Shown here in pieces: positions 4,488 through 64,000 of a stretch of 64,000 nucleotides of DNA. The notes beneath the pieces were generated by a model. It saw only the letters and a list, made by a program, of their open reading frames with translations, was not told the DNA's origin and ran no database searches. Location: the NCBI GenBank assembly GCA_964019135.1, contig OZ025248.1, forward strand, positions 38,867,670 to 38,931,669, in the 5' to 3' direction. The stretch's first letter is position 1; each line of letters opens with the position of its first letter. Source of the DNA: Arenicola marina. Its lineage: Eukaryota > Annelida > Polychaeta > Arenicolidae. Both the position numbers and the translations under genes were made by a program.

Positions 4488-7400
4488 ATGGAACCACCGA
4501 TCATTGTGACGTGTGCGCTACTCATCCTCGGGTTGGTGTCCAGGGTGTCAGGTCTGGCAAAAGCTAAGGATAAACAAGCGGAATCGCTTGTTATGCACGT
4601 CACTTACAATACAACACAGTGCTACAACAGTCCCTTCTCCCAACAGTTGTGTTTTAACGACACGACGATTGAGATAACGGACGCCGTGTATGGAGTAAGT
4701 CCGTGTAAAGCTAATCGCACTGAATGCTGCCCGGATCTCGACGACTGCACCATCCCGGTCGAAGAGAAGGATCCTGTCCGTCGCACTGACTATTACAATC
4801 AGATTCTGAGCAACTGTAACAATAAACAGACATGTCATGGCCTTCAAGCGCTATGGATTGGCAACATTACTCAGTGGTGTCCAGCTGCCTCTGGCGAAAC
4901 GAATTACGTCACGCTCCACTACACGTGTCTCACAGGTAATATCAACAGCTGGACGTTTGTTTTGATAAGCCTGTGCCACTGACCAACCAGCGATCCCTCC
5001 TGTCATTAACATAAATACATAAGTAAATACATAAATACACAAATAATAAATGAGTTATTTGACAATATGAGCATAACAATGCATGGGTCTCAGTTGAATG
5101 TTTAAAATATGTTACTTTTTGCCCCAACATTCTATTTGTGAGATGCACGACATATTTATCATTTTTCCAGCAGAGATGCCTCATCTATACCCCAAGTAAC
5201 TTCCAACGTCACGGTTGACTTGATTTTTTGGGTTGAATCTTGACCAATTTAAAACATTCTTTTGTCGTACGGTGACATTCAACTTGACACGGGGTCAACA
5301 TTTTAAGCGCTTCGGGCCTTTAATGGTGATGACTTCCCCCCTCCCCCTTTCCGCCCCTGCCCCCGCCCCTCGGTCGTAAGTTTGTACAACGTACGCCCTT
5401 GTACACGTACCCCTTGACGAAATACTGGATCCTCACCTATATCCCATATTGTTTTCCTGTACAATTCTTCTTCGATCAAGTTATTGATCATATTTCATAT
5501 TCTGCACTTCAATTGCATTTATAAAAGGAAAATACGTTACAAAAATCACCATTAGTTATATATCATTCTGTGTCAATAGATATAAATCGGTGGCCATGTC
5601 AAGGAGATGCTTTCAGGCAATACACATGTGTTATAGAAGCAGACAGGCTTAGGACTACAGGAACCGCAACGACTGACGTAATCATATCAGCGAACAGCAC
5701 AACCACCTCCAAACCTAGCCCAGGTTATCCAGTATCCACGGCAACCGCGACTGTTGTATCTACGGTGACCGATGTCATTGATGATGATGGTGATGATGAT
5801 GGAGGAGGTGATGATGGTGATGATGATGGAGGAGGTGATGATGATGATAATGATGATGATGGAGGTGGTGATGATGATGATGATGATGATGGAGGTGGTG
5901 ATGATGATGATGATGATGGAGGTGGTGATGATGATGATGGAGGTGATGATGATGGAGGTGGCGATGATGATGATGATGGAGGTGGTGATGATGATGATGA
6001 TGGTGACGATGATGGAGGTGGCGATGATGATGATGATGGAGGTGGTGATGATGATGATGGTGATGATGGAGGTGATGATGATGATGATGATGATACTAAT
6101 TGTAAGCCATAACATAAGTCTTTAACTGAGTCTATGTGATTGTAAAAGTTGATATATTTCACTTGACATGACTGTATTCAAAACAGATTTGATCATGATC
6201 AGTCATTTACTCGGATTCGATCGAGGTCGAATGTATGCCAAATATTTACCAAAGATCAATTAATGGCGCTATATTTAATACATGATTCAAAAATGAATAG
6301 GACAATGCTGGACAAAATAATTAATCAGAAATGAACAGGTTGCCGTATTTAGCTTCCTAACTTTGACTCATTGTGTTGACGCGCCTATTTCAACCATGCT
6401 TCATACTTTATACTTTACAGCAACCCTAACCATAGTGATAATAGCGGCGATTGTGGTGGTGGTCGTGGCTGTGGTGGTGGTCGTGTCTGTGGTGGTGGCC
6501 GTGACGGTCTGGATGGTCTGCAGGTAAGACTCCTGTCTAATGATGCACAATAACACATAACGACATAATGACTTAGACGTCTGCAAACGATGCTTAAATT
6601 AATCAAATCAGACACGCTCAATATTGATCAGAATATTATATCTTCGATCTGGCGGAGAGTTCAGAGAAATTCGTTCACAAAGTCGATCCCCAAAAAGCCG
6701 AGGTACTCTATATAAAGGCTGCATAATTACCAAGGCCGGAAATCCCTCTTAAATACTAGATGCAAAACATCATTAAACGCGCCTTGCCAGAAATGCTGAA
6801 CATTTCAGTATCCCAAATCACCCCCAGAAGACAAGAAGCCATGATTAAAAAAGCTTTCTGACTGAATAGCTCAAATGCCACATATTAATTTGCATCCGTC
6901 GAAAGACGTCATAAAGACGTGTTGCCAGACATATTCGACAATTTTATGTTGATCACTCTCCTTTATTATGCGTAGGCCTACGTCCACTCACATCTATGTC
7001 GCTATTTAAAGTCATCACTGTCATTCCTTTCTAAACAGAAAGAGGAAAGCAGACAACAGATCAGAAGAAAATAAAACTGCCGCCGCCCAGTCAGCGCCAG
7101 GAATGATGACGTCACACGTATCAGCGTGTGTTGATGACGTAGATCCGTATCACACAGCGCGACCTGGTGGCGGCCCAGGGCCACAGGGGCCGTCACCAGC
7201 CCAGGGGCTGAATGACGCCACCAAGCCGGCCACAAACCCGTATGACACCTGTCAGCCCCTCACTAAACCTATGGTTACCAAGAAACCGAAACCCAATCCC
7301 AAGGCCGTAGATGAGCCTAACATGGGAGCGGATCTCTACACCGAGGTGGTTAAGGTGCGGCCGAGGAAGAATGTGGTGCTCGATAAGTCCCCGGGGGAGG

Positions 7401-7681
7401 AGGATGTGGAGGCCAATAATAATGGGTCTTATATGACTGAGGCGGGGAACAGGGCATCGTACGACCTCGTGATGCAGGAAAACCATGAATACGGCACCCG
7501 GCAGGGGCTGGGTGGGGACGGGGAGGGAGAGGGGCGCGGGGTGGATGGAGAGGGGGAGGGAGAGGAGCACGGGGTGCATGCGGAGGGCCATCCCCACGAG
7601 GGCCGGCAAGATGGCGACCAGGACATACCGACAGACCCAGACTACGACCTGGTTATGACAGAGAACAACGTCTACAACTAG
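4488..7681 (+). CDS. Receptor A: single SUEL-like lectin domain, acidic stalk, TM, class 1 tyrosine tail
   Basis: Four-exon model: 4488-4935, 5637-6101, 6421-6523, 7039-7681, with GT..AG introns in phases 1, 1 and 2. The total is 1659 bases (552 residues), with no internal stop. Residues 1-22 look like a signal peptide. Residues ~45-148 form a Cys-rich domain with the CF.DTTIEITDAVYG core, a CNNKQTC motif and a final VTLHYTC strand, resembling Gal_Lectin/SUEL (PF02140). The stalk exon starts EADRL, is Thr-rich and turns into an Asp/Gly repeat. The membrane exon encodes a Val-rich helix ending in Arg. The tail has DPYHTA, NPYDT, LYTEV, YDLV and a second YDLV near the end. The start was chosen because MExPxI aligns with the paralogues. 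An upstream TTG-initiated extension is not shared by all copies. The N-terminal lectin domain of B, D and I is cleanly absent. Ligand unknown; cell-surface recognition is inferred. Confidence 0.72.
5772..6091 (+). repeat. GAT/GGAGGT trinucleotide-based repeat inside the stalk exon of A
   Basis: An in-frame repeat encodes runs of Asp broken by Gly-Gly or Gly-Gly-Gly. The equivalent stretch in H (59214-59350) is about 59 codons shorter, so the tract expands and contracts in whole codons. Antisense and other-frame open frames over it (Met-, Ser- or Ile-rich) are shadows. Confidence 0.9.
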
Positions 7682-13721: not shown

Positions 13722-16181
13722 ATGGAACGATCGGTCATTTTCACGTGTGCGCTACTCATTCTCGGGTGTGGCGCGTCAGACTCCAGACAAACATGTGTCG
13801 ATCGTACAGAAGATTTACGGTTGGACTGTGGAGTTGGTGTTGTCTACGTGGCAGGAGCAGCAGCGCTGGGAGACTGTAGCGAGTCCGGGGCGAGTTGCCA
13901 GGATACCAGCCATGGTGATGACGTCATCACGGCGCCCGTGAGATATTGGTGTGACGGCTTAGCGAGATGTCACGTGACGGCCTCCAACTGGTACCGTGCT
14001 GCGAACCGGGAGCGAACCAGCCTGGCAGTGAGCTATATGTGTGACGTTAGGGCGCACATTAGGTCAGGTATGACAATATCAGTGGATCAACTAGCAGAGT
14101 TGCGTGTGATGCCCGCCATTCAAAACACGACAAAGTGCTACGGCAGTTACTTCTCCCAACAGTTGTGTTTTGGCGACACGACGATTGAAATCACGGACGC
14201 CGTGTATGGAGTGAGTCCATGTAACTCGGATGGTAATCCCACTCACTGCTGTCCGGATTCCGGCGACTGCAACATCGATGTCGAACAGAAGGACCCTAAG
14301 GAGCACCCTGACTATTACAACGAGATTCTGCTCAAGTGTAACAATAAACAGACATGTGATGACCTTCAGGCGCAATGGATCAGTTACATTTCTAAGTGGT
14401 GTGCAGCTGCCCCTGACAACACGGATTACGTCACGCTCCAGTACATGTGTCTCACAGGTATCTCCACTGTATGTTTGGTTTTTGCAATGTTGGGCGCCTG
14501 GTTTTGTCCGTGATCTTTTCTTCGGTCATAATGACCTGACATTTTCAGCCTGGACAATATCACCTCGAATTTATCTCACCGCACCGAACAACTTTTCTTA
14601 TGCAATAAATCACTGGTATCCGATAATTTTTTCTAATTAAATGATCACAGATTACACACTTCTATCAATATAAATCGATGCTACATATCACTCCGTAGAC
14701 ATGGAAATCTGAATATGCTTTTGCGCTATAGATGCAGATAGGCTTACCACCACTACAGCAGCTGCATCGCCTGGTGTAACCTTATCAACTACTACCACCA
14801 CTCCCTCCACAATCAAACCAAGATCAGCGACTCCAGTTACTGAGGTATCCACCGCAACCTCGACTGCGGTGTCCATGGTGGCCGATACCACTACAGACAG
14901 CGCTCTGGACAGCAATGATGGTAAACCATTCGCTCAGTCATACACTAAAACTAATTCTCAAATTGTATTATGATATGTCCCTTAACGTGTACTTGAAACA
15001 CATTTCCATGTTGCTCTTACATTAATCGAAAACAAAGCTTACATTTATCAAATGTACACATATTGGCAAGCCAAATTAACAGTAATATTTATATACTTCA
15101 ATAATATAATGAGCTATACCATATAACAGAAAAAAGAACATTATAGGGAAATGATTTCGTAAGGTTCGTTCATTGCTTGGCACCTAGTACCATACCTGCC
15201 TCTCTACCTGTCGTTTTTATTGACAGGCTTCCTAACCATAGTGATAATAGCGGTGATTGTGGCGGTGGTCGTGGCTGTGGTGGTGGCCGTGACGGTCTGG
15301 CTGGTCTGCAGGTAACGCTAATGTCCAAAAAATGCTAAACAAAACATAATGACATAGAATATTAAACACATGAACGACGGCTCCACTAACTATCACTCAT
15401 ATTATAGCATGCCACCTTGATTAATCAGCTTCTTGACTGTATGATCCAGACGCTTGACACCTGATTTAAAACGGTTTATATATGGCATATATATACTTTC
15501 TTTCAATATATGTACGTCCTCTTTCAGCCATGTCGCTATTTGGACTAATAACTCTCATTTTTGTCCAACAGAAAGAGGAAAGCAAACAGCACGTCACAAG
15601 AGAATAAAACTGCCGCTGCTCAGTCAGCGCCAGGCATGATGACGTCACACGTATCAGCGTGTGTTGATGACGTAGATCCGTATCACACAGCGCGACCTGG
15701 TGGCGGCCCAGGGCCACGGGGGCCGCCACCAGCTCAGGGGTTGAATGACGTCACCAAGCCGGCCACAAACCCGTATGACACCGGTCAGCCCCTCACTAAA
15801 CCTATGGTTGCCAAGAAGCCCAAACTCAATCCCAAGGCCGTAGATAAGCCTAACATGGGAGCGGATCTCTACACCGAGGTGGTTAAGGTTCGGCCGAGGA
15901 AGACTGTGGCGCTCGATAAGTCCCCGGGGGAGGAGGATGTGGAGGCCAATAATAATGGGTCTGGTATGACCGAGGCGGGGGACTGGGCATCGTACGACCT
16001 GGTGATGCAGGAAAACCATGGTTACGGCACCCGGCAGGGGGTGGGTGGGAAGGGGTGGGGAGAGGGGCACGGGGTGGATGGAAAGGGCCTCCCTCACGAG
16101 GGCCGGCAAGATGGCCACCAGGACGAACAGACAGACTCAGACTACGACCTGGTCATGACAGAAAACAACGCCTACAGCTAG
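13722..16181 (+). CDS. Receptor B: two SUEL-like lectin domains, Thr-rich stalk, TM, class 1 tyrosine tail
   Basis: Exons 13722-14457, 14732-14920, 15227-15311 and 15572-16181 join in phases 1, 1 and 2 to 1620 bases, 539 residues, fully open. Residues 1-20 are a signal peptide. Domain 1 spans Cys25-Cys107 (LRLDCGVGVVYV, WCDGLARCHV, SLAVSYMC) and domain 2 Cys139-Cys243 (CFGDTTIEITDAVYGVSPC, CNNKQTC, YVTLQYMC). Both resemble divergent SUEL/Gal_Lectin domains. The stalk is 63 residues, rich in Thr/Ser/Pro and probably O-glycosylated. The membrane exon encodes about 25 Val/Ile/Ala residues ending in Arg, then a KRK stop-transfer patch. The ~200-residue tail has a proline-rich stretch and tyrosines in DPYHT, NPYDT, LYTEV, YDLV, GYGTR, YDLV and a C-terminal AYS. 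If intron 1 were retained, a short hydrophobic end would give a secreted form. Function as a recognition receptor is inferred. Confidence 0.75.
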
Positions 16182-21979: not shown

Positions 21980-22861
21980 ATGGAACGACCGGTCATTTTC
22001 ATGTGTGCACTACTCATTCTCGGGTGTGGCGCCTCAGACTCGAGACAAACATGTGTCGATCGTACAGAAGATTTACGGTTGGACTGTGGAGTTGGTGTTG
22101 TCTATGTGGAAGAAGCAGCAGCGCTGGGAGACGGTAGCGAGTCCCTGACGTGTTGCCAGGATACCAGCAATGGTGATGACGTCTTCACGGCACGGGTTAG
22201 AGATTGGTGTGACAGCTTAGCGAGATGTCACATGGAAGCTTTGATCTGGTACCCTTCTGAAGCGGTTTGCAAACCAGCTTGGCTGTGAGCTATATGTGTA
22301 ATGTTGCCTCACACAGTAGATCAGGTAGGAAAATATCAGTGGATCAACTAGCAGAGGTGCGTGTGATGCCCGCCATTCTAGGCACCACACAGTGCTACGC
22401 CAGTTACTTCTCCCAACAGTTGTGTTTTGGCGACACGACGATTGAGATAACGGACGCCGTGTATGGAGTCCGTGTAACGCTGACGCCACTCAGTGCTGTC
22501 CGGACCCGGCGACTGCACCATTCCGGTCGAAGAGAAGGATCCTAACGAGCACCCCGACTATTACAATGAGATTCTGGTCAAGTGTAACAATAAACAGACA
22601 TGTGATGACCTTCAGGCTCAATGGATCGGTTACATTTTCCAGTGGTGTCCAGGTGTCTCTGGCTATACGGATTACGTCACGCTCCACTACATGTGTCTCA
22701 CAGGTATCTCCACTGTATGTTTGGTTTTTGCAATTTTGGGCCCCTGGTTTTGTCCCTGATTTTTTTTCTTCGGTCATAATGCTTCGACACTTTCCGTCTG
22801 GACAATATCACCTAGAATTTACCTTAGTAATAGTCATTTTCCTGGTTATTACAAGTTACAG

Positions 22862-22985
22862 GTGTAACAATAAACAGACATGCGATGGTCTTTTTACTTT
22901 TTGGCGCACCTTTCCATACATGTGGTGTACTGGGGTGTCTATGGCACCACGGATTACTTCACGCTCCCCTACATCTGTCTCACAG
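22862..22985 (+). pseudogene. Orphan 3' fragment of a lectin-2 exon
   Basis: It carries CNNKQTC-coding sequence, the TGG TGT pair and the end of the domain with a donor site (GTAATACGAAC) as in D. It lacks the first two thirds of the domain and has a frame change before the last strand. It sits 160 bases after the exon 1 donor of C, at the point where intron sequence switches from B-like to D-like, and is best read as a recombination scar. Confidence 0.7.
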
Positions 22986-23989
22986 GTAATACGAACTGTT
23001 GCACGTTTTGATTTCAAGCCAACGGTGGATCACATGGTGGTACTTGCAAAGTCTCGCATTAACGCGCTTTCAATTAACTACACAGTGTACTAACATATTT
23101 CTCATGTCCATAATTGTAGACTATGTAGGTTTGTTGATATGCCCTCTAGATGCAGATCGGCTGACAACAGCTACAACGACTGACGCAACCATATCAACGA
23201 GCGTCACTTCCATCTCCACTATAAAATCAGGAACGCCAAATGGTGCGCTATCCACAGCAACCCCGGATGTTGTATCCATGGTGACCGATGTCACAACTGA
23301 GAGTGACGCCAGTGAAGGTAGTCCAGCCGTCCAGTCTCACCCAATATTGACAATGTCTTTTCTTGTTGGAGTTGTCATTCGAATATATCACTTTACCATA
23401 ACCTAAGATAGATTTTTATTTAGGCCGACTGATTTCCTTCTAATAGTGGGACACGAACCCCGAATTTCGGCAAGATGGCTGGGCTGGCAGAGTTCACTTT
23501 TCACAATTAATAGGGTGACGGCTAATACCCTGCCTCCACCCCCCCCCCCACCCCCTCACCTCATCGGCCCCACCACCACCAAGGGGCCTGACATAATGAT
23601 TACGATTATGAATAATCACTAGACAAATGTTCCATCTACATCTTTTGGCGCCGCCTAAGTGTGGATTGTGAATATGGTCCCAGAGCGCCTCACCTGCAGC
23701 AACTGCAGCATCTACAACGTCTGACGTAACCGTATCAACGAGTACCACCTCCATCTCCACGACCAAACCAGAATCTTCCACAGTTGCGGTGTCCACAGCA
23801 ACCCCGGATGTTGTATCCACGGTGACCAATGTCAGAACTGAGAGTGAAGCCAGTAAAGGTAATCCAGCCGTCCAGTCTCACCCAATAGTGACAATGTCTC
23901 TTCTTGTTGGATTTGTCATTCGAATATGTCACTTTGCCATAACCTAAGATAGTTTTTCAACGAGGCCGACTGATTTACTTCTAATAGAG

Positions 23990-24078
23990 GGGCGCGAACC
24001 CCGAATTCCGGCACGACGGCTGGGCTGGCAGAGTTCACTGGCAACACAGAGCGTTAGCAACCAGGCCACGCCGGTCAT
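23990..24078 (-). repeat. tRNA-derived SINE-like sequence (copy 1)
   Basis: On the minus strand an A-box-like segment (GTGGCCTGGTTGCTAACGC) is followed about 50 bases later by a B-box (GGGGTTCGCGCCCC). Similar copies lie at 28000-28092 and 49017-49112, and 3'-half copies at 23450-23500, 47322-47375, 47880-47935 and 48441-48500. It does not fold as a normal tRNA by eye, so a SINE or tRNA relic is likelier than a gene. Confidence 0.5.
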
Positions 24079-30587: not shown

Positions 30588-30589
30588 AC

Positions 30590-38625: not shown

Positions 38626-38639
38626 TTGTTGGTGAATTT

Positions 38640-42228: not shown

Positions 42229-45200
42229 ATGTCTAACACCCTGGTGGCAATGCTTAAAAACAGCGCCATGTTGACAATGGATCATCATGGTAACAACCGT
42301 GAACGATGGCTGGTACTTCCGTTGTTGGCGCTAATGGCAGCATGGTTGCTGTGCAACATCCCAATTGGCCACGTCCAAAGTCTCTCGTTGGGCCAACGTT
42401 TCCAAGGTAATGCACCCGGTTTTGGCCGGGAAAGACACCGGAAATAGATATCGTTTTTTCACGCAGCAGAGCAGACTAAAGTTCTGATAAAATACACATA
42501 GTTATCAGCAGTAAATTGATGATGATACAGTGCCATTAAAGTCGCCACTTAGGAACAGAACACGTGGGTGATAATATAGGTCTAGAGAAGGACGCGGACC
42601 ATTATCATTGTCATGAAGTCTCTTTTCAGCTGATGGTCGGAATGATGTTGATCCGTGTAACAAGGGGAAGTACTGTGTGATCGACACTGTGGTAGCCAAC
42701 CCGGACAATTGTACCACTTACTTTGTGTGCGGTGCAAGCAGCTGGATTGAAATGCCGTGTGATGTCAATCTGGGGTTCAATCCTGAGACAGGGCGCTGCG
42801 ACTACATGACCGAGGTCACGTGTCAGCCACCCTGTCCCCCCTTCACCGGCCCCACCACCACCGAGGGGCCCACCATCTCACCAGGTATGAGTAAATCAAT
42901 TAATAGGGTGACTCCCAACACCCTGCCCCCCCCCCCACACCCCACCCCACTCTCACCGGTCCCACCCACACCGGTATATGTAAGTTAATTAATAGGGTGA
43001 CTGCTATTACCCTGCCCCACCCCCACCCCCCTTCACCGGTCCCACCACCACCGAGGGGCCCACCATCTCACCAGGTATGTGTAAATCAATTAATAAATAG
43101 GGTGACTCCCAATACCCTGCCCCCCCCCCCACCCCACTCTCACCGGTCCCACCCACACCAAAGGGCCCACCATCTCATCCGGTATGTGTAAGTTAATTAA
43201 TAGGGTGACTGCTAATACCCTGCCCCCCCCCTCCACCCCCCTACACCGGCCCCACCACCACCGAGGGGCTCACCATCTCACCAGGCATGTGTTAATCAAT
43301 TAATAGGGTGACTGCTAATATCCTGTCCCCCCCCCCCACACCCGACCAAGGGGCCCACCGCCATGTCCCCGGGGGTAAACCTCTACTCTTTGCGAAGAAA
43401 TACATGAGATCTTTATCCTGCGACCACACACACATGGTTGGTTGGTTATTCAGGACGCTTTAACCACTTTTGGTCATATCGCGTCAATGGGAGATGCCAG
43501 GGAGAGTGGAGCCATGTCCTCGGGGGTAAACCTCTACTCTTTGCGAAGAAATACATGAGATCTTTATCCTGCGACCACACACACATGGTTGGTTGGTTAT
43601 TCAGGACGCTTTAACCACTTTTGGTCATATCGCGCCAATGGGAGAAGGAGGGGAGAGTGGGGCCATGTCCTCGGGGGTAACCCCCTACTCTTTACGAAGA
43701 AAGACATGGGATCTTTATCCTGCGACCACACAGACATGGCCACAGCAGGGCTCGAACCACTGACCCACGTGCCGTTAGGCTCTCAGGTGACCAGAGCACT
43801 CAATGCGAGCGCTCTAGCCCACTGAGCTGTCGCGCCGGCCCTCTACACACACACATGGCCACAGCGGGGCGAAAACCACCGATCTACGTGCAGTTTGGCT
43901 CTCAGGTGCCAAAATCACTCTGGCTACCGCTGTAACCCACTGAGCTATCGAGGCGGCCCCTTCAATTAATAATCGAATGCTAATACCCAGTCCCCCTCCC
44001 TCCTTTTGTGTCCCCACTACCACAATGTGCCCACCGAGGTGGTACGAATATATTGTTACACAACCAACAATGCACAACGTTTAAGATGTCACTGCGAACA
44101 TGGGTCTAATAGATCTGTCCTTGCGTTATATCCAGTGTTAACGTTACCTCTTACATTGTCCCCGCCGCTGCGGCTTAGGTTTGTGTCACTACGTGGCGCT
44201 GCCATGTACCGCTGGGGAGAAGTTCGCCGATGTCTCCAGCTGTGAACATTATTACGAGTGCGTCGTCTTCAACACACTCCGCAGACTGCAGTGCCCGCCG
44301 GGAGAGGTTTTCGACATCTACCTCTCGATGTGTAATGTCGTCACCCACGGCTTCGACTGTGACTATCGATGTACAACCACCGGGGCGCCAACGACATTAC
44401 CCGCCACCACAACGTCACACACTGCCACGTCAGTGTCGAGCGTCGGTCACGCGGCGTCATCGACAGCACAACATGACACTACCGTGTTGTCTTCTACGAC
44501 GTCGGACAGCCAACCACGAACCGCCACCACCACCAGCGAGGGGCCCACCATCTCGCCTGGTATGTGTCAATCAATAATTAGATGACTCTAATACCCTGTG
44601 TCGCCCTCGCACCCCCCCCCCCCCTCATTGGAACTATCACCACCAAGGGACCCAATATCTCACTGGGTATGTGTCAATCAATTAACAAGGTGACTGCTTG
44701 CTCATTCGAATATGTCACGTCACGCTTACCTAAGATAATTTTCCATCGAGGCGGACTGATTTCCTTCTAATATCGTTAAGTCACCAACTTGTTTCAAAGG
44801 TAAAATACCGACCTTAATTGATGTTGTGATTAAAAATGTGCCGAAGCGCTTACGAGATGTATCATGTATAGATACGGGCCTCAGCGATTTTCACCATATG
44901 GTATGCGTAGCAACGAAAATAGAAGTTCCCATTAAGCAGCAGAAACGTGTCTATTATCGAAGCTTTAAACATTTTGATTAGATTAAATACAAAGACGTTC
45001 TAGCATCGGTACCTTTTCATGTAGGTGAAGCCTTTGAAGATGTTGATGATTCATATTGGTTTTGTAGCACATTGATCAAAGAGGTCGTTGATAGACATGC
45101 ACCAACCAAGCAACAGGTAGTTAAGAATAACTGAATATCTTATTAAGAATATCTTTGCAAAGCCAAAAATGTAAAAAGATATGCTGAGACGGAAGTACGA

Positions 45201-48200
45201 GCAATTGAGTAGCCAAGAGAATTGGGAAAAATACAGAAAGCAAAGGAATCTCATAGGACGTCTTCGGAAAGTAAGCATGCAAAAGTACATAAAGGGGAAA
45301 TGTAGCGAAGCTACGACTAACGGGAAGGAATTCTGGAAAGTTGTAAAACCACTGATATCAAGAAAAAACGTGTTACTGAAAGAGGAGACGAAATAATATC
45401 AGATCCATCAAAGGTAAGTGACATATTTAATCAATATTTCATAGACGTTTCCAAAGACATAGGCCAACAAGATGACATACCAGATTATCAACCAATAGAC
45501 GAAACCCTTCTTTATCACAAAGACCATCAATCCGTTATGGCTATAAAGGAAGGTAACCAAGGCATAACGGAAACTTTTAACTTTCGGGCAGTAAGTAGCC
45601 ATGAAATATACAATGCACTTAAAGGCATTGACGTGTCGAAGGCTAGTGGCTACGACAAGATACCTCCGAAGCTTATCAAGCTAGGAGCTGCCATCCTGTG
45701 TGAGCCATTAAGGTATGTGTTAAATATGACGATTAATTGTAATACGTTTCCAAAAGAACTAAAATACGCTGAAGTCACAACCCATTTTCAAGAAGAAGGA
45801 CATCTTAAATAAGGAAAACTACAGGCCAGTATGTGTTCTCCCCATCTATCTCCAAGATATATGAAAAAATATTGTGTGACCAGCCTATGTTCTTTATGGA
45901 ACCCAGGTTATCACCCAGACTATCTGTGTTTAGAAAGGGACACAGTTGTCAAAGCCTACTGATGCGTTTAGTTGAAGACTCCAAAAATGCATTAGATAAT
46001 AATCAAGTTATGGGAGCTATACTAATGGATCTCTCAAAAACATTCGATTGTCTTCCACACAGATTATTGATTACCAAGATGATTGCTTATGGCATAAGTA
46101 AACAATCATGTACGCTAGTTGCAAGCTATCTTACGAACCGCGATCAGAGGGTAAAACTAGGACATAATCGGAGCGAGTGGCTTACCCTTAAGAAAGGAGC
46201 ACCACAGGGATCTGTTTTGGTCCACATCTGTATAATGTATTTAGGAATGACCTGCTTGTATCCACCGCACGGGAAACTGATAAGTATAATTATGCTGATG
46301 ATAATACTGTGGCGGCTCAAAGTAAGGAGTTTAACAAGGTTAAAGCAACTCTAGAGAAGGCGTTATCGGAGATAACAACGTGGTTCGTCGACAATTACAT
46401 GAAAGCAAACCCAAGTAAATACCAGGCAATCGTGTTTGAAAAGAGAAACGAATTAAGTCAGCACAGATCGTTTTCGATTTACTAGGTATTCAACTGGATT
46501 GGTTAACTTTCGGCAACCATATATCAAGTTTATGCAAGAAGGCTGGAAAAAGTCTCAATGTTTTAGCTAGAGTTTCAAAATCAATGGATGTTGATAGCAA
46601 ACTTACGTTATTTCATTCTTTTATTCTTTCCCATTTTAATTATTGTCCCGTTGTATGGCATTTTTGTGATATGAAAAATATGCGTAAGATTGAAAAGATA
46701 CAGGAGCGGGCATTGAGGTATGTGTTTAATGACTTTAGATCAGAATACGCAGAGTTGAGGAAGAGAGCGGGTAGACCATTGCTATATGTTGAACGATTGT
46801 GCTGCATATCATTAGAAGTTTACAAGAGTATCAACAAGATTGGGCCTAGTTATCTTCATGACATGTATAACGTGAAGGAAAACAAATCTTCATGACATGT
46901 ATAACGTGAAGGAAAACAATTACATTTTAAAAAATGGGCCAAATATATGTATGACACGCGTTAAGACAACAGCTTATGGCCATAATTCATTGAAGTATCA
47001 AGGTAGCAAGCTATGGAACATGCTCAACAAGGAAACGAAGTTAGCCAAATCTGCCAAGGAATTTAAAACAACGCTGTCATCTTCGGATGTGTTCTTGTGT
47101 CACTGTAATTCGTGCACATTATGTAACATAGCTAATGGGTAAGGTTTTATGAGATGCAAAGGTTGTTATATTTTCATTGTCACATGTACATATATCTCAT
47201 CCGCTCATGTCATTTTATCATTGTCGGTCAATAGCACGTGTGCTAATGTTTATTGTTGACTTTTACATATCGACGTTAAATAAAACTTTATCTTATCCTA
47301 TCTTATCCGATCTAATAGTGGGACGCGAACCCCGAAATTCGGCAAGATGGCTGGGCTGGCAGAGTTCACTTTTTACAATTAATAGAGTGACTGCTAATAC
47401 CCTGCTTCCCCCACCCAAACCTCATCATCCCAACCACCACCATGGGGCATGATATAATGATTATGATTATGAATAATCACTAGACAAATGTCAATTTAAG
47501 TCTATTGGCGCCAACTAAGTGTGGATTATGAATATGTTCCCAGGTTTGTCGCACAGCTCACAAGAGTGGACGGGGAGCGCCTCACCTGCAGCAACTACAG
47601 CATCTACAACGATTGACGTAACCATATCAACGAATACCACCTCCATCTCCACGACCAAACCAGAATCTTCCACAGTTGCGGTGTCTACAGCAACCCCGGA
47701 TGTTGTATCCATGGTGACCAATGTCAGGACTGAGAGTGACGCTAGTGAAGGTAATCCAGCCGCCCAGTCTCACCCAATAGTGACAATGTCTCTTCTTGTT
47801 GGATTTCTCATTCCAATATGTCATTTTACCATTACCTAAGATAATTTTTCATCGAGGCCAACTGATTTCCTTTTAATAGTGGGACGCGAACCCCGAATTC
47901 CGGCACGATGGCTGGGCTTGCAGAGTTTACTTTTCACAATTAATAGAGTGACTGCTAATACCCTGCCTCACCACATCCCCCCCCCCCTACCTCATCGGCC
48001 CCACCGCCACCAAGGGCCCTGGTATAATGATTATGAATTATCACTAGACAAATGTTCCATTAAAATCTATTGGCGCCGCCTAAGTGTCGATTATGAATAT
48101 GGTCCCAGATGTGTCGCACAGCTCACAAAAGTGGATGGGCAGCGCCTCACCTGCAGCAACTGCAGCATCCACAACGACTGACGTAACCATATCAACGAGT

Positions 48201-50085
48201 ACCACCTCCATCTCCACGACCAAACCAGAATCTTCCACAGTTGCGGTGTCCACAGCAACCCCGGGTGTTGTATCCATGGTGACCAATGTCACCACTGAGA
48301 GGGCCCCCAGTGAGGGCAAGCCAGCCGTCCAGTCTCACCCAATAGTGACAATGTCTCTTCTTGTCGGATTTCTCATTCGAATATGTCACTTTACCCTTAC
48401 CTAAGATAGTTTTTCATTGAGGCCGACTGATTTCCTTCTAATAGTGGGACGCGAACCCCGAATTCTGGCACGATGGCTGGGCTGGCAGAGTTTACTTTTC
48501 ACACTGAATAGAGTGACTGCTAATACCCTGCCCCCCCCCCCCCCCACCCCCACCTCATCGCCCCACCACACCATAGGGGGCCTGAAATAAAGATTACAAT
48601 TATGAATAATCACTAGACGAATGTTCCATTTATTGATAAGTCTATTGGCGCCGCCTAAGTGTGGATTATGAATATGGTCCCAGATTTGTCGCACAGCTCA
48701 CAAAAGTGGATGGGGAGCGCCTCACCTGCAGCAACTGCAGCATCCACAACGACTGACGTAACCATATCAACGAGTACCACCCCCATTTCCACGACCAATC
48801 CAGAATCTTTCACAGTTGCGGTGTCCACAGCAACCCCGGATGTTGTATCCATGGTGACCGATGTCACCACTGAGAGTGACCCCAGTGAAGGTAAGCCAGC
48901 CGTCCAGTCTCATCCAATAGTGACAATGTCTCTTCTTGTCGGATTTTGTCATACGAATATGTCACCATAAGCTTACTTAAGATAGTTTTTCAACGAGGCC
49001 GACTGATTTACTTCTAATAGGGGGGCGCGAACCCCGAATTCCGGCACGACGGCTGGGCTGGCAGAGTTCACTCGTGACACAGAGCGTTAGCGACCAGGCC
49101 ACGCCGGTCATACATGTAATTAAATCAATCGATTGGATATATACAGATGCATCATTTGATTAGGCACAACTGTCATAATCAGAACTTTGGCTCCGTAAAG
49201 TTAGATTGTTCTGTTTAGCCCATTATAATTCCTGTTTTAATTGAGATAGCAGTCCTCTCCAGCTGAGTACCTTCGTACTTTACTTGACAGCCCCCCAGAC
49301 TGCGGTGATAATAGCGGTGGTTGTGGCGGTTGTCGTTATCGTCGTGGCTGTGGTGGTGGCAGTGACGGTCTGCATGGTCTGCAGGTACTACTGATATTTA
49401 TCAGGGATTTAGGATTAATGAGGAACATAGGCGATAAAATAGAGCTTAAGAAAGACCTGTCGCCACCAGGTCTCGACAATCGGCAACAGACGATCTACTG
49501 CAATGGTATACTGAAAAAGAACGATTTAAGGGTTCACATATGCAAATATTAATTCCTGAAACATTACTATAATACATACAAACTGTTTCAAGCCAGATTG
49601 ATATGTTGACTAAGGCAAAATTCCTATTCTATTCCGAAAGAAAGAGGAGAACCTTCAACCTGTCCGAAGATAGTAAACCTGACGGTGCCCAGTCACAAGG
49701 TCTGTACAACACGATTTACCTGCGGGAAGCTGAGCCTCTCCCACTGTCACCGCCGCGGATGATGACGTCACACGCGTCAACCGGTTTTGATAACGTTGCT
49801 CCGTATAACGTAAATTCACAATCATCTTCGGATTTGTATGACGTCATCAAGCCGGTCTCGGAGGCCTACGAACTCTTAGGGCCCTACAATAGACCTGAGG
49901 TCTCCAAGACAACGGGAGATTATGTCAACGTTGTCGATACGACAATAGAAGGAAGGGCTCTGTTCACTGAGCTTGCCCCGGGAACGGGCGTCGTGCCAGG
50001 GAAGGTTCCGGGTGAGGGGAGTGACGTAGCGATCAGAGGGAATAGACTCCTTGGAGAGGTGGGTGGGGAGGGAAATGATGAGTAA
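42229..50085 (+). CDS. Receptor F: two chitin-binding (ChtBD2) domains, three stalk exons, TM, class 2 tail
   Basis: Eight-exon model: 42229-42406, 42630-42884, 44179-44559, 47544-47750, 48109-48315, 48684-48890, 49291-49384, 49641-50085. The introns are phase 1 except the last (phase 2). The sum is 1974 bases, 657 residues. Exon 1 encodes a hydrophobic signal (WLVLPLLALMAAWLL); a later Met (42277) could also start. Exons 2 and 3 each hold a six-Cys peritrophin-A/ChtBD2 domain: CVIDTV..DNCTTYFVC..CD..FNPETGRCD, and CTAGEKFADVSSCEHYYEC..CPPGEVFD..MC. Exon 3 adds a Thr/Ser stalk. The three 69-residue stalk exons are near-copies. The tail has YDVI-x6-YELL (49837-49878) and YVNV, but YTEL has become FTEL (49963). 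A deletion at ~50020 replaces the C-terminal QYGT end. Joining the chitin-binding exons to the receptor exons is inference from phase, spacing and shared stalk sequence; they could be two genes. Confidence 0.55.
42840..43330 (+). repeat. Tandem copies of an exon end plus adjoining intron (gene F)
   Basis: Four or five copies, about 105-185 bases apart, of a unit containing CACCACCGAGGGGCCCACC, ATCTCACCAGGTATGTGTAA, AATTAATAGGGTGACTGC and a poly-C run. The first is the real end of the ChtBD2 exon with its donor; the rest are intronic copies that repeat the donor. Two more copies follow exon 44179-44559. Confidence 0.8.
43360..43960 (-). mobile_element. Tandem tRNA-derived SINE copies
   Basis: On the minus strand, a tRNA-like head at 43838-43740 has an A-box (CAGCTCAGTGGGCTAGAGCG) and a B-box (GGTTCGAGCCC). 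The body runs to a CCAACCAACCA tail near 43440-43590. The body is repeated with a 152-base period (43360-43433 partial, 43434-43585, 43586-43740), and a second, worn head lies at 43845-43960. It sits in the intron between the two ChtBD2 exons of F. Confidence 0.75.
44773..47310 (+). mobile_element. LINE (Jockey/CR1/L2-like), 5'-truncated, in an intron of F
   Basis: The element starts within the endonuclease C-terminus (IDTGLSDFHHMVC near 44870-44910), runs through reverse transcriptase motifs (ASGYDKIPPKL; LMDLSKTFDCLPH; KKGAPQGSVL; YADDNTV) and the usual C-terminal region (LFHSFILSHFNYCPVVWHF). It ends with an AATAAAACTTTATCTTATCC tail of short repeats. A 7-base TCTAATA direct repeat flanks it (44766-44772 and 47311-47317). 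The frame is broken in several places, for example just after PQGSVL near 46215, where the YADD box continues in another frame, and a 31-base piece near 46860-46910 is duplicated. It is dead. It interrupts the stalk-type repeat of gene F. Confidence 0.85.
47318..48990 (+). repeat. Threefold tandem amplification of a stalk-exon unit (gene F)
   Basis: Three units of about 565-575 bases, exon starts 47544, 48109 and 48684. Each holds a partial tRNA-like sequence, a GGGTGACTGCTAATACCC word, poly-C, a GGCGCC word, a 207-base exon and an A+T-rich tail. A related unit occurs once in C (23440-23960), with a 37-base loss at its exon start. All exons are multiples of three with phase 1 ends, so copy number changes keep frame. 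Confidence 0.85.
49017..49112 (-). repeat. tRNA-derived SINE-like sequence (copy 3)
   Basis: Nearly identical to 23990-24078, as part of the larger duplication between C and F. Confidence 0.5.
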
Positions 50086-51129: not shown

Positions 51130-51270
51130 GCATCAAGCAGACTACCTGGACAGGTGGACGTGATCGGCACATCTCAATGCCTATACCGAGGACCGAATTC
51201 ACCATCATTATCTAATTCTTAAATAAATATCGTTGCTTGGTCCAGTCGCTGAAAGGTTTGTTTAGAGGCA
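51130..51270 (+). promoter_or_regulatory. Conserved upstream block, type beta, truncated (gene G)
   Basis: It shares TCACCATCATTATC and TTTAGAGGCAGATCG words with the blocks before D and E, but its right part and the start codon region are deleted. Confidence 0.35.
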
Positions 51271-51292
51271 GATCGCTTGTTGTACGGTTTAC

Positions 51293-53138
51293 GATTTACG
51301 GTTGGACTGTGGAGTTGGTGTTGTCTACGTGGAAGGAGCAGCAGCGCTGGGAGACTGTAGCGAGTCCGTGACGTGTTGCCAGGATACCAGCCATGGTGAT
51401 GACGTCATCACGGCAAGGGTTAGAGATTGGTTTGACGGCTTGGCAAGATGTCACGTGACGGCCTCAACAAATGTCAGTGGATCAACTCGCAGTCGAGTTG
51501 CGTGTGACGCCCGCGTTCAAAACCCGAAAAAGTGCTACCGCAGTTACTTCTCCCAACAGTTGTGTTTTGGTGACACAACCATTGAGATAATGGACGCCGT
51601 GTATGGAGGGAGTCCGTGTAACGCGGATGGTAATTCCAGGTACTGCTGTCCGGATCCCGGCGACTGTACCATCCCGGTCGAAGAGAAGGATCCTAGCGAC
51701 CACTCAAGTGTAACAATAAACAGACATGTGATGACCTTACAGTTACATTTCCCAGTGGTGTCTAGGTGCCCGTGACACCAAAGATTACGCCACGCTCCAC
51801 TACATGTGTCCCACATGTATCTCCACTGTATGTTCGGTTTTCGCAATTTTAGGCGCCCTCTTTTTTCCGTGATCTTTTCTTCGGTCATAATACCCCGACA
51901 CTTTCCGCCTGGACAATATCATTTCGAATTTACCTCACCGCACTTTTACTAGGTGCAGTTTTTCATATGCAATATTTCACTGATGTCTGATGTTTTGTTC
52001 TTACCTTTCCTTAATGATCACACATCCGCAGACATGGACGTTTTCAATCTAGTAATAAAAATAAAATCTGAATATGTTATGCGCTATAGATGAAGAAAGG
52101 CTCACCACGACGGCACCACCGCAACCACGACTGTGGTGTCCATGGCGGCCGATACCACTACTGATAGCGCTCTGGAACACAGTGATGGTAAAGCATCCGT
52201 TCCGTCACACACTAAAACCAAATCTGAAATTGTATTCCGATATTTCCCTTAACATATTAACAGTAATATTTATATACATCAATAACATAATCGGTCAAGC
52301 CGTATAAGAGAAACAAGAACGTTATACGGAAATAATTTCGTAAGGTTCATTCATTGCTTGGCACCTAGTACCGTGCCCGCCTCTCTACCTGTCGTTTTTA
52401 CTTGACAGTCACCCTAACCATAGTGATAATAGCGGTGATTGTGGCGGTTGTCGTGGCTGTGGTGGTGGCCGTGACGGTCTGCCTGATCTGCAGTTAACGA
52501 TAATGTCCACAAATGCTAAACCAAACATAATGTCATAGAATATGAAACATGACGCAGAAGGGTTCATATATGGCATATGTTGATCACTTCCTTTCATTAT
52601 AAGTACGTCTTCTTTCAGCCATATCGCTATTTTAAGTAAAAACTCTCATTCGTTTCCAATAGAAAACACAGCACGTCACAAGAGAATAAAACTGCCTCTG
52701 CCCAGTCCTCACCAAGCCGCCCACAAACCTGTATGACACCGGTCAGCCCCTCACTAAACCTGATTGCAAAGAAGCCGAAACCCAATACCAAGGCCGTAGA
52801 TAAGCCTAACATCGGAGCGGATCTCTATACCGAGGAAGAATGTGGTGCTAGATAAGTCTCCGGGGGAGGAGGATGTGGAGACCAATAATAATGGGTCTCA
52901 TATGACCGAGGCGGGGGACAGGGCATCGTACGACCTCGTGATGCAGGAAAACCATGAGTACGGCACCCGGGAGGGGCTGGGTAGGGACGGGGAGGGAGAG
53001 GGGCACGGGGTGGATGGAGAGGGCTTCCCCAATGAGGGCCGCGAAGATGGCGACCAGGACGAACATATCCGCCCCTGTCAAAGCCAAATCACGCCGGACC
53101 TGGTTGAGCAACAAGAACCCGTGCACGGTACCCAGTGA
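51293..53138 (+). pseudogene. Receptor G: decayed two-lectin copy with a class 1 tail
   Basis: The first exon lacks the start codon and signal peptide: the type beta upstream block is joined to GATTTACGGTTGG, part of lectin domain 1. Domain 1 has lost a Cys (WFDG for WCDG) and its last third. Domain 2 has a deletion over the YYNEI segment and another over the QAQWI segment. The stalk exon (52090-52187) is shortened to a length that is not a multiple of three. The membrane exon (52409-52493) has TT in place of the donor GT. The tail lost most of its N-terminal half, and the open part from 52842 keeps YDLVMQENHEYGTR but ends differently. The 5' side resembles D; the stalk, membrane and tail resemble B. 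Confidence 0.8.
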
Positions 53139-53690: not shown

Positions 53691-53699
53691 GTGTCTGCC

Positions 53700-57675: not shown

Positions 57676-57958
57676 TCTGTGTATGTAGGTGGTCGTGTAG
57701 TGGTCTGTTCCAGTCGCTATAACACAGAGCTCGTGGGGAGGTGGATACGTGAAGCTGATCCTGTAGAACACAGTGACTGTGTATGGACTCACAATACGTA
57801 TACAAACCTGCTCGCTATCACCCAGTCTTGTGACTTCTCAGTGGGACAGTCCGCCGATTATACGATCATTGCCTACTCAGTTTAAAGTGGTTGATTCCGT
57901 GAAATGACAGGCCGTTAAGGGAATACGTCTATAGTTGTGTGGTGTTAACGGTAGGAGA
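57676..57958 (+). promoter_or_regulatory. Conserved upstream block, type alpha (gene H)
   Basis: Nearly identical to 4205-4487 before gene A. Confidence 0.4.
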
Positions 57959-59264
57959 ATGGAACAACCGATCATTGTGACGTGTGCGCTACTCATCCTC
58001 GGGTTGGTGTCCAGGGTGTCAGGTATGGCAATATCAATGGATAAACAAGCGGAATCGTTTGTTATGCACGTCACCCACAACACAACACAGTGCTACGGCA
58101 GCTTCTTCTCCGAAGAGTTGTGTTTTGGCGAAAAGACCATTGAGATAACGGATGCCGTGTATGGAGTAGGTACGTGTAACGCTGATCGCACTAACTGCTG
58201 CCCGGATCCCGACGACTGCACCATCCCAGTCAAAAAGAAGGATCCTGTCGGCCGCACTGACTATTACAATCAGATTCTGAGCAACTGTACCAATAAACGG
58301 AAATGTGTTGGCCTTCTAGCGCTATGGATTGGCAACATTGACGAGTGGTGTCCAGGTTTATATGGCGCCACGGATTACGTTACGCTCCACTACATGTGTC
58401 TCACAGGTAATATAAACAGCTGGACGTTTGTTTGTATAAGTCTGTGCCGCTGATCAACCAGCGATCCCCTCTGTCATTAACATAAATGCATAAGCAAATA
58501 CATAAATACATAAATAATAAATAGACAATATGAGCATAACAATGCATGGTGAATGTTCAAATGTGTTGACTTTTGCGCCAACATTCTATTTGTGAGATGC
58601 ACGACATAATTATCATTTTTCCAGTAGATATGCCTCATCTATACCCCTTCTACCGTCACGGTTGGCTTGGTTTTTTGGGTTGAATCTTGTATTTGAACCA
58701 GACAAATTTAAAACATTCTTTTGTCGTACGGTGACATTCAACTTGACACGGGGTCAACATTTTAGGCGCTTCAGGCCTTTACTGGTGATGACTCCCCCCC
58801 CCCCTCCCCCTTTCCGCCCCTGCCCCCGCCCCTCGGTCGTTAGTTTGTACAACATACGCCCTTGTACACGTACACCTTGACGAAAAACTGGATCCTCGCC
58901 TATATCCCATATTTTTTTTCCTGTACAATTCTTCTTCGATAAAGTTATTGCATTTATAAAAGGAAAATACGTTATAAAAATCGCCATTAGTTATATATCA
59001 TTCTGTGTCAATAGATATAAATCGGTGGCCATGTCAAGGGGATGCTTTCAGGCAATAGACCTGTGTTATAGAAGCAGACAGGCTTACGACTACAGCAACC
59101 GCAACGACTGTCGAAACCATATCAGCGAGCAGCCCCACCGACTCCAAACCTAGCCCAGGGTATCCAGTATCAACGGCAACCGCGACTGTTGTATCTACGG
59201 TGACCGATGTCCTTCATGGAGATGATGATGATGATGGAGGTGGTGGTGATAATGATGGAGGAGG

Positions 59265-59299
<35 letters not shown>

Positions 59300-60900
59300 G
59301 TGATGATGGTGATGGTGATGATGATGGAGGTGGCGATGATGGTGATGAAGATACTAATTGTAAGCCATAACATAAGTCTTTAACTGACGCTATGTTATTG
59401 TAAAAGTTGATATATTTCACTTGACATGACTGTATTCAAAACAGATTTGATCATGATCAGCCATTTACTCGGATTCGATCGATGTCGAATGTATGCCAAA
59501 TATTTACCAAGATCAATTAATGGCACTATATTTAATACATGATTCAAAAATGAAATTAGTCATAGAGTCTGCTGGACACAAAAATGCACACAAAAAGCAG
59601 AAATGAACCCGTTGCTGTATTTAGCTTCCTAACTTTGACTCATTGTGTTGACGTGCTTATTTCAACCATGCTTATCGTTCACACTTTATACTTTACAGCA
59701 ACCCAAACCATAGTGATAATAGCGGTGATTGTGGTCGTGGTCGTGGCTGTGGTGGTGGCCGTGACGGTCTGGATGGTCTGCAGGTAAGACTCCTGTCCAA
59801 GGATTCACAAAAAAAAACACAGCGAATTAGCCTGTAAGAAGAACGATGCTTCAAATAATCAAATCAGACATGCTCAATATTGATCAGAAAAGTATATCTT
59901 CGATCTGGCGGAGAGAACAGAGAAATTCGTTCACAAAGTCTGATCCCGAATAAGCCGACGTACTCTTTATAAAGGCTGCATAATTAACAAGGCCGGAATC
60001 TCTCTTAAATACAAGATGCAAAACATCGTTAAACGCGCGTTGCGAGACAGTCACGCTAAAAATTCCAGTCTCTCGAATCACCACAAGAAGCAGTATTGAT
60101 TACAACAGCTTCCTGACTTCTTGAATAGCCCAAATGCCACATATTAATTTGCATCTATCTAAAGACACCATAAACGGTGTTGCCAGACATATCAGGAAAT
60201 TTCCCGTTTATTCCTCCTCTTTATTATTTGTACGTTCGCTCGCAGCTATGTCGCTGTCAAAGCTCATTACTGTCATTCTTTTCTAAACAGAAACAGGAAA
60301 GCAGACAACACATTAGAAGAGAATAAAACTGCTTCCGCCCAGTCAGCGTCAGGAATGATGACGTCACACGCATCAGGGTGTGTTGATGACGTAGATCCGT
60401 ATCACACAGCGCGACCTGGTGTCGGCCCAGGGCCACGGGGGCCGCAACCAGCTCAGGGATTGAATGATGTCACCAAGCCGGCCAAAAACCCGTATGTCAC
60501 CGGTCAGCCCCTCGCTAAACCTGTATTTGCCAAGAAGCCGAAACCCAATCTCAAGGCCGTAGATAAGCCTAACATCGGAGCGGATCTCTACACCGAGGTG
60601 GTTAAGGTGCGGCCGAGGAAGAATGTGGTGCTCGAAAGGTCTTCGGGGGAGCAGGGTGTGGAGGCCAATAATAATGGGTCTGATATGACCGAGGCGGGGG
60701 ACAGGGCATCGTACGACCTCGTGATGCAGGAAAACTATGAGTACGGCACCCGACAGGGGGTGGGTGGGGAGGGGGAAAGAGAGTGGCACGGGTTGGATGG
60801 AGAGGGCCTCCCCCACAAAGGCCGGCAAGATGGCGACCAGGACGAACAGACAGACCCAGACTACGACCTGGTCATGCCAGAGAACAACGTCTACAGCTAG
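57959..60900 (+). CDS. Receptor H: single SUEL-like lectin domain, short acidic stalk, TM, class 1 tail
   Basis: Exons 57959-58406, 59072-59359, 59699-59783 and 60291-60900 join in phases 1, 1 and 2 to 1431 bases, 476 residues, fully open. It is the duplicate of gene A, with the same signal peptide (MEQPIIVTCALLILGLVSR), the same lone lectin domain (CFGEKTIEITDAVYG; CTNKRKC; VTLHYMC) and the same stalk start (EADRL). The Asp/Gly tract is 59 codons shorter and the membrane exon 18 bases shorter. Compared with A, lectin positions near the conserved core differ (DTT to EKT, NKQTC to NKRKC), so the binding face may differ. The tail has DPYHTA, NPYVT, LYTEV, YDLV, NYEYGT, YDLV and a C-terminal VYS. 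Confidence 0.72.
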
Positions 60901-63104: not shown

Positions 63105-63402
63105 CTATTCGCATGTAGGTAGCGGTGTAAATGTCTTTTCTAAAGCGGCCAGCGGAGCGCGTGGATTGGCGGAGACATGAAGGAGAACATGTAGAAGAAG
63201 ACGGTGGATAGTGTCACAATATCTATTATACATACCTACCCGCTATAAAACAGTAATCTGACTTTCCGTAGGACAACCGGATAATCAATCACATGCACGG
63301 TCATTGCCGACTCCTCAGTTGAAAGGGGTCGATTCACTGAGACTACTGGCCGGATTACATAACGGAATATACCTCTAATACTAAGGGGCTGAAGGTCGGC
63401 AA
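63105..63402 (+). promoter_or_regulatory. Conserved upstream block, type alpha (gene I)
   Basis: It matches 13435-13721 before gene B closely, including the GTCATTGCCGACTCCTCAGT word. Confidence 0.4.
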
Positions 63403-64000
63403 ATGGAACGATCGGTCATTTTCACCTGTGCGCTACTCATTCGCGAGAGTGGCGCGTCAGACTCCAGACAAACATGTGTGGATCGTACAGAAGATTTACG
63501 GTTGGACTGTGGAGTTGGTGTTGTCTACGTGGAAGGAGCAGCAGCGCTGGGAGACTGTAGCGAGTCCGTGACGTGTTGCCAGGATACCAGCCATGGTGAT
63601 GACGTCATCACGGCGCGGATTAGAGATTGGTGCGACGGCTTGGCGAGATGTCACGTGACGGCCTCCACCTGGTACCCTGCTGAAAGCAGAGGGCGAACCA
63701 GCCTGGCAGTAAAGTATATGTGTAAGGTTAGGGCGCACAGTACGTCAGATATGAAACTATCAGTGGATCAACTATCAGTGCTGCGTGTGACGCCCACCAT
63801 TCAAAACACGACGTTTAAGTGCTACGGCAGTTACTTCTCCCAACAGTTGTGTTTTGACGACACGACGATTGAGATAACGGACGCCGTGTATGGAGTGAGT
63901 CCGTGTAACGCTGATCTCACTCACTGCTGTCCGGATCCCGGCGACTGTACCATCCCGGTCGAAGAGAAGGATCCCAACGAGCACCCTGACTATTACAATG
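63403..64000 (+). CDS. Receptor I: two-lectin copy, first exon, cut by window end
   Basis: Open from the ATG at 63403 to the window end (about 199 codons). The signal peptide is altered: ALLIRES replaces ALLILGC, which puts charge in the hydrophobic core and may weaken secretion. Domain 1 is complete (LRLDCGVGVVYVEGAA, WCDGLARCHV, LAVKYMC). Domain 2 is present to the YYN segment (CFDDTTIEITDAVYG). It is the duplicate of gene B. Later exons lie outside the window, so integrity is unknown. Confidence 0.65.
   Translation, partial: MERSVIFTCALLIRESGASDSRQTCVDRTEDLRLDCGVGVVYVEGAAALGDCSESVTCCQDTSHGDDVITARIRDWCDGLARCHVTASTWYPAESRGRTSLAVKYMCKVRAHSTSDMKLSVDQLSVLRVTPTIQNTTFKCYGSYFSQQLCFDDTTIEITDAVYGVSPCNADLTHCCPDPGDCTIPVEEKDPNEHPDYYN

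Follow-up and report, generated by a model that had tools for sequence, protein, structure and literature searches.

The receptors closest to those described here are known from other invertebrates. In Hydractinia the Alr genes are likewise clustered, and motifs of the activating (ITAM, immunoreceptor tyrosine-based activation motif) and inhibitory (ITIM) kinds are reported on candidate allorecognition genes (PMC11999971, PMC12065747). In Botryllus, the fester co-receptors (FcoR) of the fuhc locus are described as type I proteins, with different signalling classes within that locus and varied tyrosine motifs that include the core Y-x-x-[ILV] (PMC12065747). In the oyster Crassostrea gigas, the protostome membrane receptor CgIgIT2 is reported to recognise microbes and to carry an ITAM in its cytoplasmic part (PMC11999971), and in the annelid Olavius algarvensis the SUEL/rhamnose-binding lectins, in seven transcript groups, have been proposed to recognise microbes (PMC5117596). 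Here, a stretch of 64,000 nucleotides from the annelid Arenicola marina (C1:38867670-38931669, where C1 is contig OZ025248.1 of assembly GCA_964019135.1; hereafter the window) was analysed, together with the rest of the genome. The window is a slice of one tandem array of about 1 Mb and about 120 copies, many of them apparently intact. That these copies form a gene family is well supported, and ITAM signalling by one of their two tail classes is moderately supported; we infer the binding of a ligand and an immune or self/non-self role. Taken together, we give a probability of roughly 0.6 to one very large tandem array encoding type I recognition receptors that would signal through Syk-type kinases.

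Extent of the array and gene models

With the class 2 tail of copy D as query, at least 111 matches were obtained, all at C1 38.36-39.43 Mb and all on the + strand, and with the class 1 tail of copy B at least 126, many at the same places as the D-tail matches and one of them a small fragment on the - strand; these counts are lower bounds, the B-tail search having scored 150 of 233 candidates. A scripted merge of both searches leaves at least 123 tail exons over 1.078 Mb of C1 on the + strand, with a median spacing of 7.4 kb. They comprise 73 class 2 and 50 class 1 exons (61 and 39, respectively, near full length in one piece, the remainder being pieces). The pattern of the class 1 C-terminal motif was found at 24 places in the whole genome, all of them in the array and on the + strand, and its reversed control at none. 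The assembly holds 867 Mb in 762 contigs, C1 being one continuous contig of 77 Mb.

Among the matches listed, relatives of the first exon also occur beyond the array, at C1:38.08-38.35 and 74.8 Mb, C3:34.4-36.65 Mb and C12:26.1 Mb. Neither the D nor the B tail query matched at any of these places and, therefore, the tail seems particular to the C1 array. A separate dense array of SUEL exons, on both strands, lies at C12:32.43-33.39 Mb and accounts for about 90 of 150 scored matches to PF02140 (counted by hand).

The gene structure is kept outside the window. The donor CAGGT of exon 1 is present in all 30 loci studied there, and the transmembrane (TM) exon was recovered by script in 28 of the 30. 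Of the neighbouring genes that could be read whole (overlapping loci of exon 1 and tail), 11 of 15 have the same phases in four-exon models that are open throughout; in the remaining four, the script did not find the stalk exon (three genes) or the TM exon (one gene). These 15 genes are biased to D-like copies because loci were cut only for the best matches.

Inside the window, all-frame open reading frames and motif scans recovered nine related copies (A-I), all on the + strand, as an earlier note on this DNA had claimed. The single exon scheme that it gave them, with phases 1-1-2, holds for A, B, D and H, each with four exons, GT-AG introns, lengths that sum to a multiple of three and a terminal stop only; under a simple 61/64 model, the chance of such an open frame is about 1e-10 to 1e-12 for each. 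When A and H are aligned, the gaps in exons are all multiples of three, while those in introns include 1, 2, 4, 5, 7, 8 and 29 bases. Copy F departs from this scheme, with eight exons in phases 1,1,1,1,1,1,2 and one GC-AG donor, and is open up to its tail stop. The frames said to be open thus are so, and five of the nine copies (A, B, D, F and H) run open from start to stop inside the window; nine working copies were not confirmed, with C, E and G broken and I passing the window end. The features are, in window positions:

4488..7681, +, gene A, open: four exons with GT-AG introns of phases 1-1-2 and without internal stop; 4488-4935 signal peptide and one SUEL-like domain, 5637-6101 stalk rich in Thr/Ser and then in Asp/Gly, 6421-6523 TM, 7039-7681 class 1 tail
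13722..16181, +, gene B, open (exon model, phases 1-1-2): 13722-14457 signal peptide and two SUEL-like domains, 14732-14920 stalk, 15227-15311 TM, 15572-16181 class 1 tail
21980..25064, +, copy C, broken: exon 1 21980-22703, frame-damaged, with 7 in-frame stops as modelled; partial second SUEL-like exon end near 22863-22988 (the exon-end motif stands at 22685 and again at 22967); stalk exon 23150-23317; second stalk-like stretch near 23672-23877; TM 24258-24351; 24608-25064 class 2 tail with ITAM consensus
26469..29760, +, gene D, open (exon model, phases 1-1-2): 26469-27204 two SUEL-like domains, 27713-27877 stalk, 28472-28565 TM, 29307-29760 class 2 tail with the ITAM match YDVIKPATEAYEPL (regular expression)
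31823..33177, +, copy E, broken: exon 1 breaks off or diverges within the first domain; remnant of the TM exon near 32430-32485; 32739-33177 class 2 tail with YEVIKPATEAYEPL
42268..50085, +, gene F, open (eight-exon model): 42268-42406 signal peptide; 42630-42884 and 44179-44559 CBM_14 (42.5 and 29.7 bits); three very similar stalk exons at 47544-47750, 48109-48315 and 48684-48890; 49291-49384 TM; 49641-50085 class 2 tail with YDVIKPVSEAYELL and an altered C-terminus
51266..53135, +, copy G, broken: frame-changed remnant of a SUEL-like exon (51266 to about 51820); 52090-52187 stalk; TM near 52409-52493, its donor lost (GT to TT); class 1 tail remnant ending at 53135, without tail start and found only as a fragment in the class 1 tail search
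57959..60900, +, gene H, open (exon model, phases 1-1-2): 57959-58406 one SUEL-like domain, 59072-59359 Asp/Gly-rich stalk, 59699-59783 TM, 60291-60900 class 1 tail
63403..64000, +, gene I, partial: start of a two-domain exon 1, the rest lying beyond the window; exon 1 of this locus (L069) is open to its end and its class 1 tail is at C1:38932877

The third intron of F, between the CBM_14 and stalk exons, holds a broken retroelement of the type without long terminal repeats (45321-47142), with an RVT_1 piece of 42.7 bits at 45809-46351 and flanking pieces that matched no family. Minisatellites stand between the receptor genes at 9539-11427 (about 126 copies of 15 bp), 34522-38624 (124 of 32 bp) and 40265-40951 (18 of 39 bp), and before the first gene at 1924-2809 (45 of 19 bp). 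On the mitochondrial contig of the assembly (C762), TGA reads as Trp and COX1 is best read with AGA as Ser; its tRNA genes run F E P T / C M / V / L A S L / I K / S / N / D / Y G / Q / W / R / H, three more program calls having been set aside as false. We take this to be the annelid (Lumbricus-type) order, in keeping with an annelid as the source of the DNA.

Ectodomains, tails and their linkage

The type of ectodomain and the class of tail are linked, and do not vary independently as the earlier note had held. Among the 119 units scored over the whole array, those with a single SUEL domain carry class 1 tails in 19 of 19 cases and those with CBM_14 carry class 2 tails in 15 of 15, while units with two SUEL domains have class 1 tails in 17 cases and class 2 in 43. 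Fisher tests give p = 1e-8 for double versus single SUEL and 0.017 for double SUEL versus CBM_14, values that are generous because the units are kin by block duplication and not independent events. The recurring order is CBM_14/class 2, single SUEL/class 1, double SUEL/class 1, double SUEL/class 2.

Once relatives are included, each of the two domains of exon 1 can be aligned, for the greater part of its length, to true SUEL domains from this genome. In local mode, hhalign scored the two against eight such domains at 32.0 and 32.0, with a probability of 72% and P values of 3.5e-5 and 3.3e-5 (global mode, 22.1 and 25.3), and the best of 40 column shuffles reached 19.7 and 19.5. Six of seven genomic relatives match PF02140 alone in Pfam, at 14-18.5 bits, and the seventh has no match. 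The cysteine codons of exon 1 show 4 amino-acid and 21 silent changes, with a ratio of amino-acid to silent change (dN/dS) of 0.02, compared with 0.61 for the whole exon, 0.55-0.56 for the domains and 0.91 for the linker between them. On profile similarity, the outer domains are very divergent SUEL homologues, which may share the SUEL fold and may bind sugars. Of the PDB sequence searches, one gave no match and another two weak, unconvincing ones, and NCBIfam gave no family in four proteins.

The exons of F proposed to be chitin-binding match CBM_14 (PF01607) at 42.5 and 29.7 bits, above the cut-off of 22.1. The array contains 15 occurrences of the second of these exons, one of them a piece with a stop. 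In 15 of 15 places, CBM_14 exons are followed 1.8-5.9 kb further on by a class 2 tail; in three of the eight CBM_14 loci read, stalk motifs are present 0.6-1.1 kb downstream of CBM_14. A close relative of this exon is found far off, at C1:4.45 Mb (89% over 80 residues), which suggests that the CBM_14 module was captured from another gene, probably in the direction of the array.

In the tails, class 2 is characterised by YDVI-x6-YEPL, Y-V-N-V and YTEL, and class 1 by YTEV and two YDLV core motifs. The ITAM consensus Y-x-x-[LI]-x(6-8)-Y-x-x-[LI] is present in 27 of the 32 class 2 tails read, a sample that leans to D because it was drawn from the 30 best D matches (plus the window copies), and in none of eight class 1 tails, one of which is incomplete. 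It arose in 52 of 20,000 shuffles of the D tail, and a Y-x-N motif is present in 31 of the same 32 class 2 tails. The codons of the class 2 motif have a pairwise dN/dS of 0.18, versus 0.71 for the remaining tail codons, and amino-acid change as low was reached by none of 149 circular shifts. On the tree, the motif underwent 19 amino-acid changes where 50 were predicted from the rest (P = 4e-7), with silent changes as expected. An inhibitory assignment of class 1 was considered and set aside: the ITIM pattern [SIVL]xYxx[ILV] fits just three of eight class 1 tails and one of 32 class 2 tails and, therefore, class 1 is not called inhibitory.

Tandem repeats of 50 bp stand just past the class 2 stop codons of C (25057-25405) and D (29836-30360), and by eye they seem like the Gly/Glu-rich part that is translated in class 1 tails. 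From this likeness, class 2 tails may be shortened relatives of class 1 tails.

Change among the copies was followed in 40 close pairs, out of 80 with an alignable intron 1. The difference between members of a pair is 4.4% in intron 1 and 10.6% in the 250 bases upstream, while exon 1 has a silent divergence (dS) of 14% and an amino-acid divergence (dN) of 7.7%. For eight recent pairs with loci in common, the majority of the exon differences (from 13 of 20 to as many as 28 of 33 and 7 of 8) are states present in other copies. One copy (L059) has a stretch of 134 bases identical to another (L066) that is about 10% different overall. The four-gamete test was failed by 1,661 of 7,503 site pairs, with little rise with distance, and differences clustered clearly in three of the eight pairs and marginally in a fourth (60 of 2,000 shuffles), the other four showing no clustering. 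These data are suggestive of exchange between copies within exon 1, or of intron homogenisation. With an overall dN/dS of 0.61, strong diversifying selection on exon 1 is not shown; among codons with five or more changes, only four had an uncorrected P < 0.05, and positive selection is not claimed.

In the two-domain type of exon 1 (28 copies), the silent difference (pS) at about residues 21-70 is 0.04-0.05, compared with 0.11-0.24 in other windows along the exon. This low value at the start of the first SUEL-like domain may reflect recent homogenisation or constraint at the DNA level.

Proposed signalling and alternative explanations

Among invertebrates, vertebrate-like Syk homologues are reported from none but those that have CARD-CC/Bcl10, annelids are among the groups to which the Bcl10-dependent branch is assigned, and the co-occurrence of Syk with CARD-CC/Bcl10 is taken as a sign of upstream ITAM receptors (PMC5978004). 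A candidate Syk-like gene, recognised by its matches to a human SYK query, is located at C2:49146535-49166298. Three collinear matches to the tandem SH2 region (C2:49146535-49152266, E 8e-6 to 2e-4) are followed by three kinase exon matches (C2:49164728-49166298) with 51, 64 and 68% identity to human SYK. Judged by these matches, the genome has a predicted Syk-type kinase gene. Elsewhere, five tyrosine-kinase-like frames with identical scores and a spacing of about 8.5 kb (C5:5402461-5437362) are recent tandem copies or an assembly repeat, and dense tyrosine-kinase exon matches occur on both strands of C3:53.9-55.2 Mb.

The predicted receptors are type I proteins. A signal peptide precedes an ectodomain of either two CBM_14 domains or divergent SUEL-type domains, one or two in number; then come a stalk rich in Thr/Ser or Asp/Gly, a TM helix rich in Val/Ile and a tail with tyrosine motifs. 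Binding of a ligand would cluster them, a Src-type kinase would phosphorylate the ITAM of class 2 tails, and the Syk-like kinase would dock there with its tandem SH2 domains and lead to cell activation. The class 1 tails (YTEV, YDLV, YDLV; no ITAM) would recruit other SH2 proteins, with a different and perhaps opposing output. The likely role would be the recognition of microbial or own glycans, in immunity or self/non-self discrimination, with new ectodomain variants supplied by duplication and, probably, by exchange between copies.

Several observations weigh against this proposal. The SUEL assignment of the earlier note stands at the level of profile-profile homology and not of direct matches, given that the PF02140 scores of A, B, D and H are 10.5-12.7 bits, far below the gathering cut-off of 31.4, and I has no match to it. 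An hhalign comparison of the two domains of exon 1 with each other found no similarity (probability 2%), and AlphaFold2, with 5-sequence alignments of window sequences, gave confidences (pLDDT) of 29 for the two-domain exon and 38 for domain 2 alone. Three of the nine window copies (C, E and G) are broken, and the ectodomain is partial in 12 and not found in 13 of the 119 units. The ITAM consensus is missing from five of the 32 class 2 tails, themselves not a random sample, and the ratio of amino-acid to silent changes on the tree does not differ significantly between motif and rest (class 2 p = 0.10, class 1 p = 0.13, pooled p = 0.054). For the kinase, each SH2 match is modest, two of the three are interrupted by a stop codon, and the genome's best SH2 match is at another place, on C8.

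Single YxxL motifs resemble YxxPhi sorting signals, and a lectin array of this kind could do without ITAM signalling if its tyrosine motifs served trafficking or endocytosis on scavenger or mucin-like surface proteins. The class 1 tails hold only core motifs of such kind, and the Asp/Gly stalks of A and H may be seen as mucin- or mineral-like. The spacing of the class 2 motifs, however, obeys the ITAM rule and is kept in 27 of the 32 tails read, 31 of which also have Y-x-N, and we consider this explanation unlikely. We hold it quite unlikely that the same receptors act in gamete or developmental cell recognition instead of immunity. SUEL proteins do act in sea-urchin eggs, fast turnover is typical of reproductive proteins, and the array contains recent duplicates, with the linker between domains changing fastest (dN/dS 0.91). 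Egg fertilisation and development are also among the SUEL functions given in the Olavius paper (PMC5117596). Nonetheless, immune-type signalling better fits ITAM-type tails together with a Syk-like kinase, and CBM_14 ectodomains would not suggest gametes.

The constraint on cysteines and tail motifs, the open frames in 11 of the 15 whole genes and the setting of the array (a single continuous contig of 77 Mb, uneven spacing and numerous divergent copies) make it very improbable that the array is largely decaying and swollen by haplotypes left uncollapsed in the assembly, even with C, E and G broken, a complete ectodomain wanting in 25 of the 119 units and some copies almost identical. For the proposed array of Syk-coupled recognition receptors, the architecture, the array itself, its two tail classes, the constraint on cysteines and tail motifs and the conservation of splice sites are matters of observation. 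The earlier picture of modular lectin or chitin-binding membrane receptors with tyrosine-rich tails is supported by the exon schemes inside and outside the window, CBM_14, the distant SUEL homology and the selection on cysteines; drawn from the window alone, it could not show the scale of the array, and it missed the ITAM consensus of one tail class and the linkage.

Comparison with known receptor systems

SUEL domains on membrane proteins are familiar from EVA-1/EVA1C and the latrophilins, EVA-1C having two SUEL domains and one TM segment. These are conserved single genes, acting in neural guidance or as adhesion G-protein-coupled receptors, and we know of no array with ITAM-type tails among them. 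Among the open-access papers listed in our searches (in one of them the top 10 of 3,954), none was recognised as describing SUEL or CBM_14 ectodomains combined with tyrosine-motif tails. For the Olavius SUEL lectins, what is reported in PMC5117596 includes neither a membrane tail nor an array.

No Ig (immunoglobulin) family appeared among the Pfam matches of seven window sequences up to E 1 and, therefore, the array is not a member of the Ig-type families (Alr, FcoR). The Hydractinia Alr receptors differ in having Ig-like ectodomains where the worm array has SUEL-like or CBM_14 domains, and they are encoded by 41 genes, compared with at least 123 merged tail exons (fragments included) in an array that is known from sequence alone. 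Those of Botryllus differ in their Ig/sushi ectodomains; for FcoR, the account in PMC12065747 names ITIM and hemITAM, not a full ITAM, and mentions no array of the worm's size. CgIgIT2, with five Ig domains, is described as one protein, and SUEL, CBM_14 or an array are not mentioned in its description in PMC11999971.

As far as its sequence tells, the array would work like the receptors with ITAM/ITIM-type tails of Hydractinia and Botryllus and the ITAM receptor of the oyster. More tentatively, and with some doubt, it may represent a protostome recognition complex in which lectin-like receptors, and not immunoglobulins, serve as paired immune receptors: one array of about 120 copies, with ITAM and non-ITAM tails tied to ectodomains, CBM_14 captured into the activating class and exons exchanged, feeding a Syk pathway for which we found no annelid receptors described. 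The array offers concrete candidates for ITAM receptors upstream of the invertebrate Syk/CARD-CC/Bcl10 pathway, with about a hundred natural variants. If this is true, large clustered families with split signalling tails also arose with unrelated, lectin-type ectodomains, beyond the Ig-type families of Hydractinia and Botryllus.

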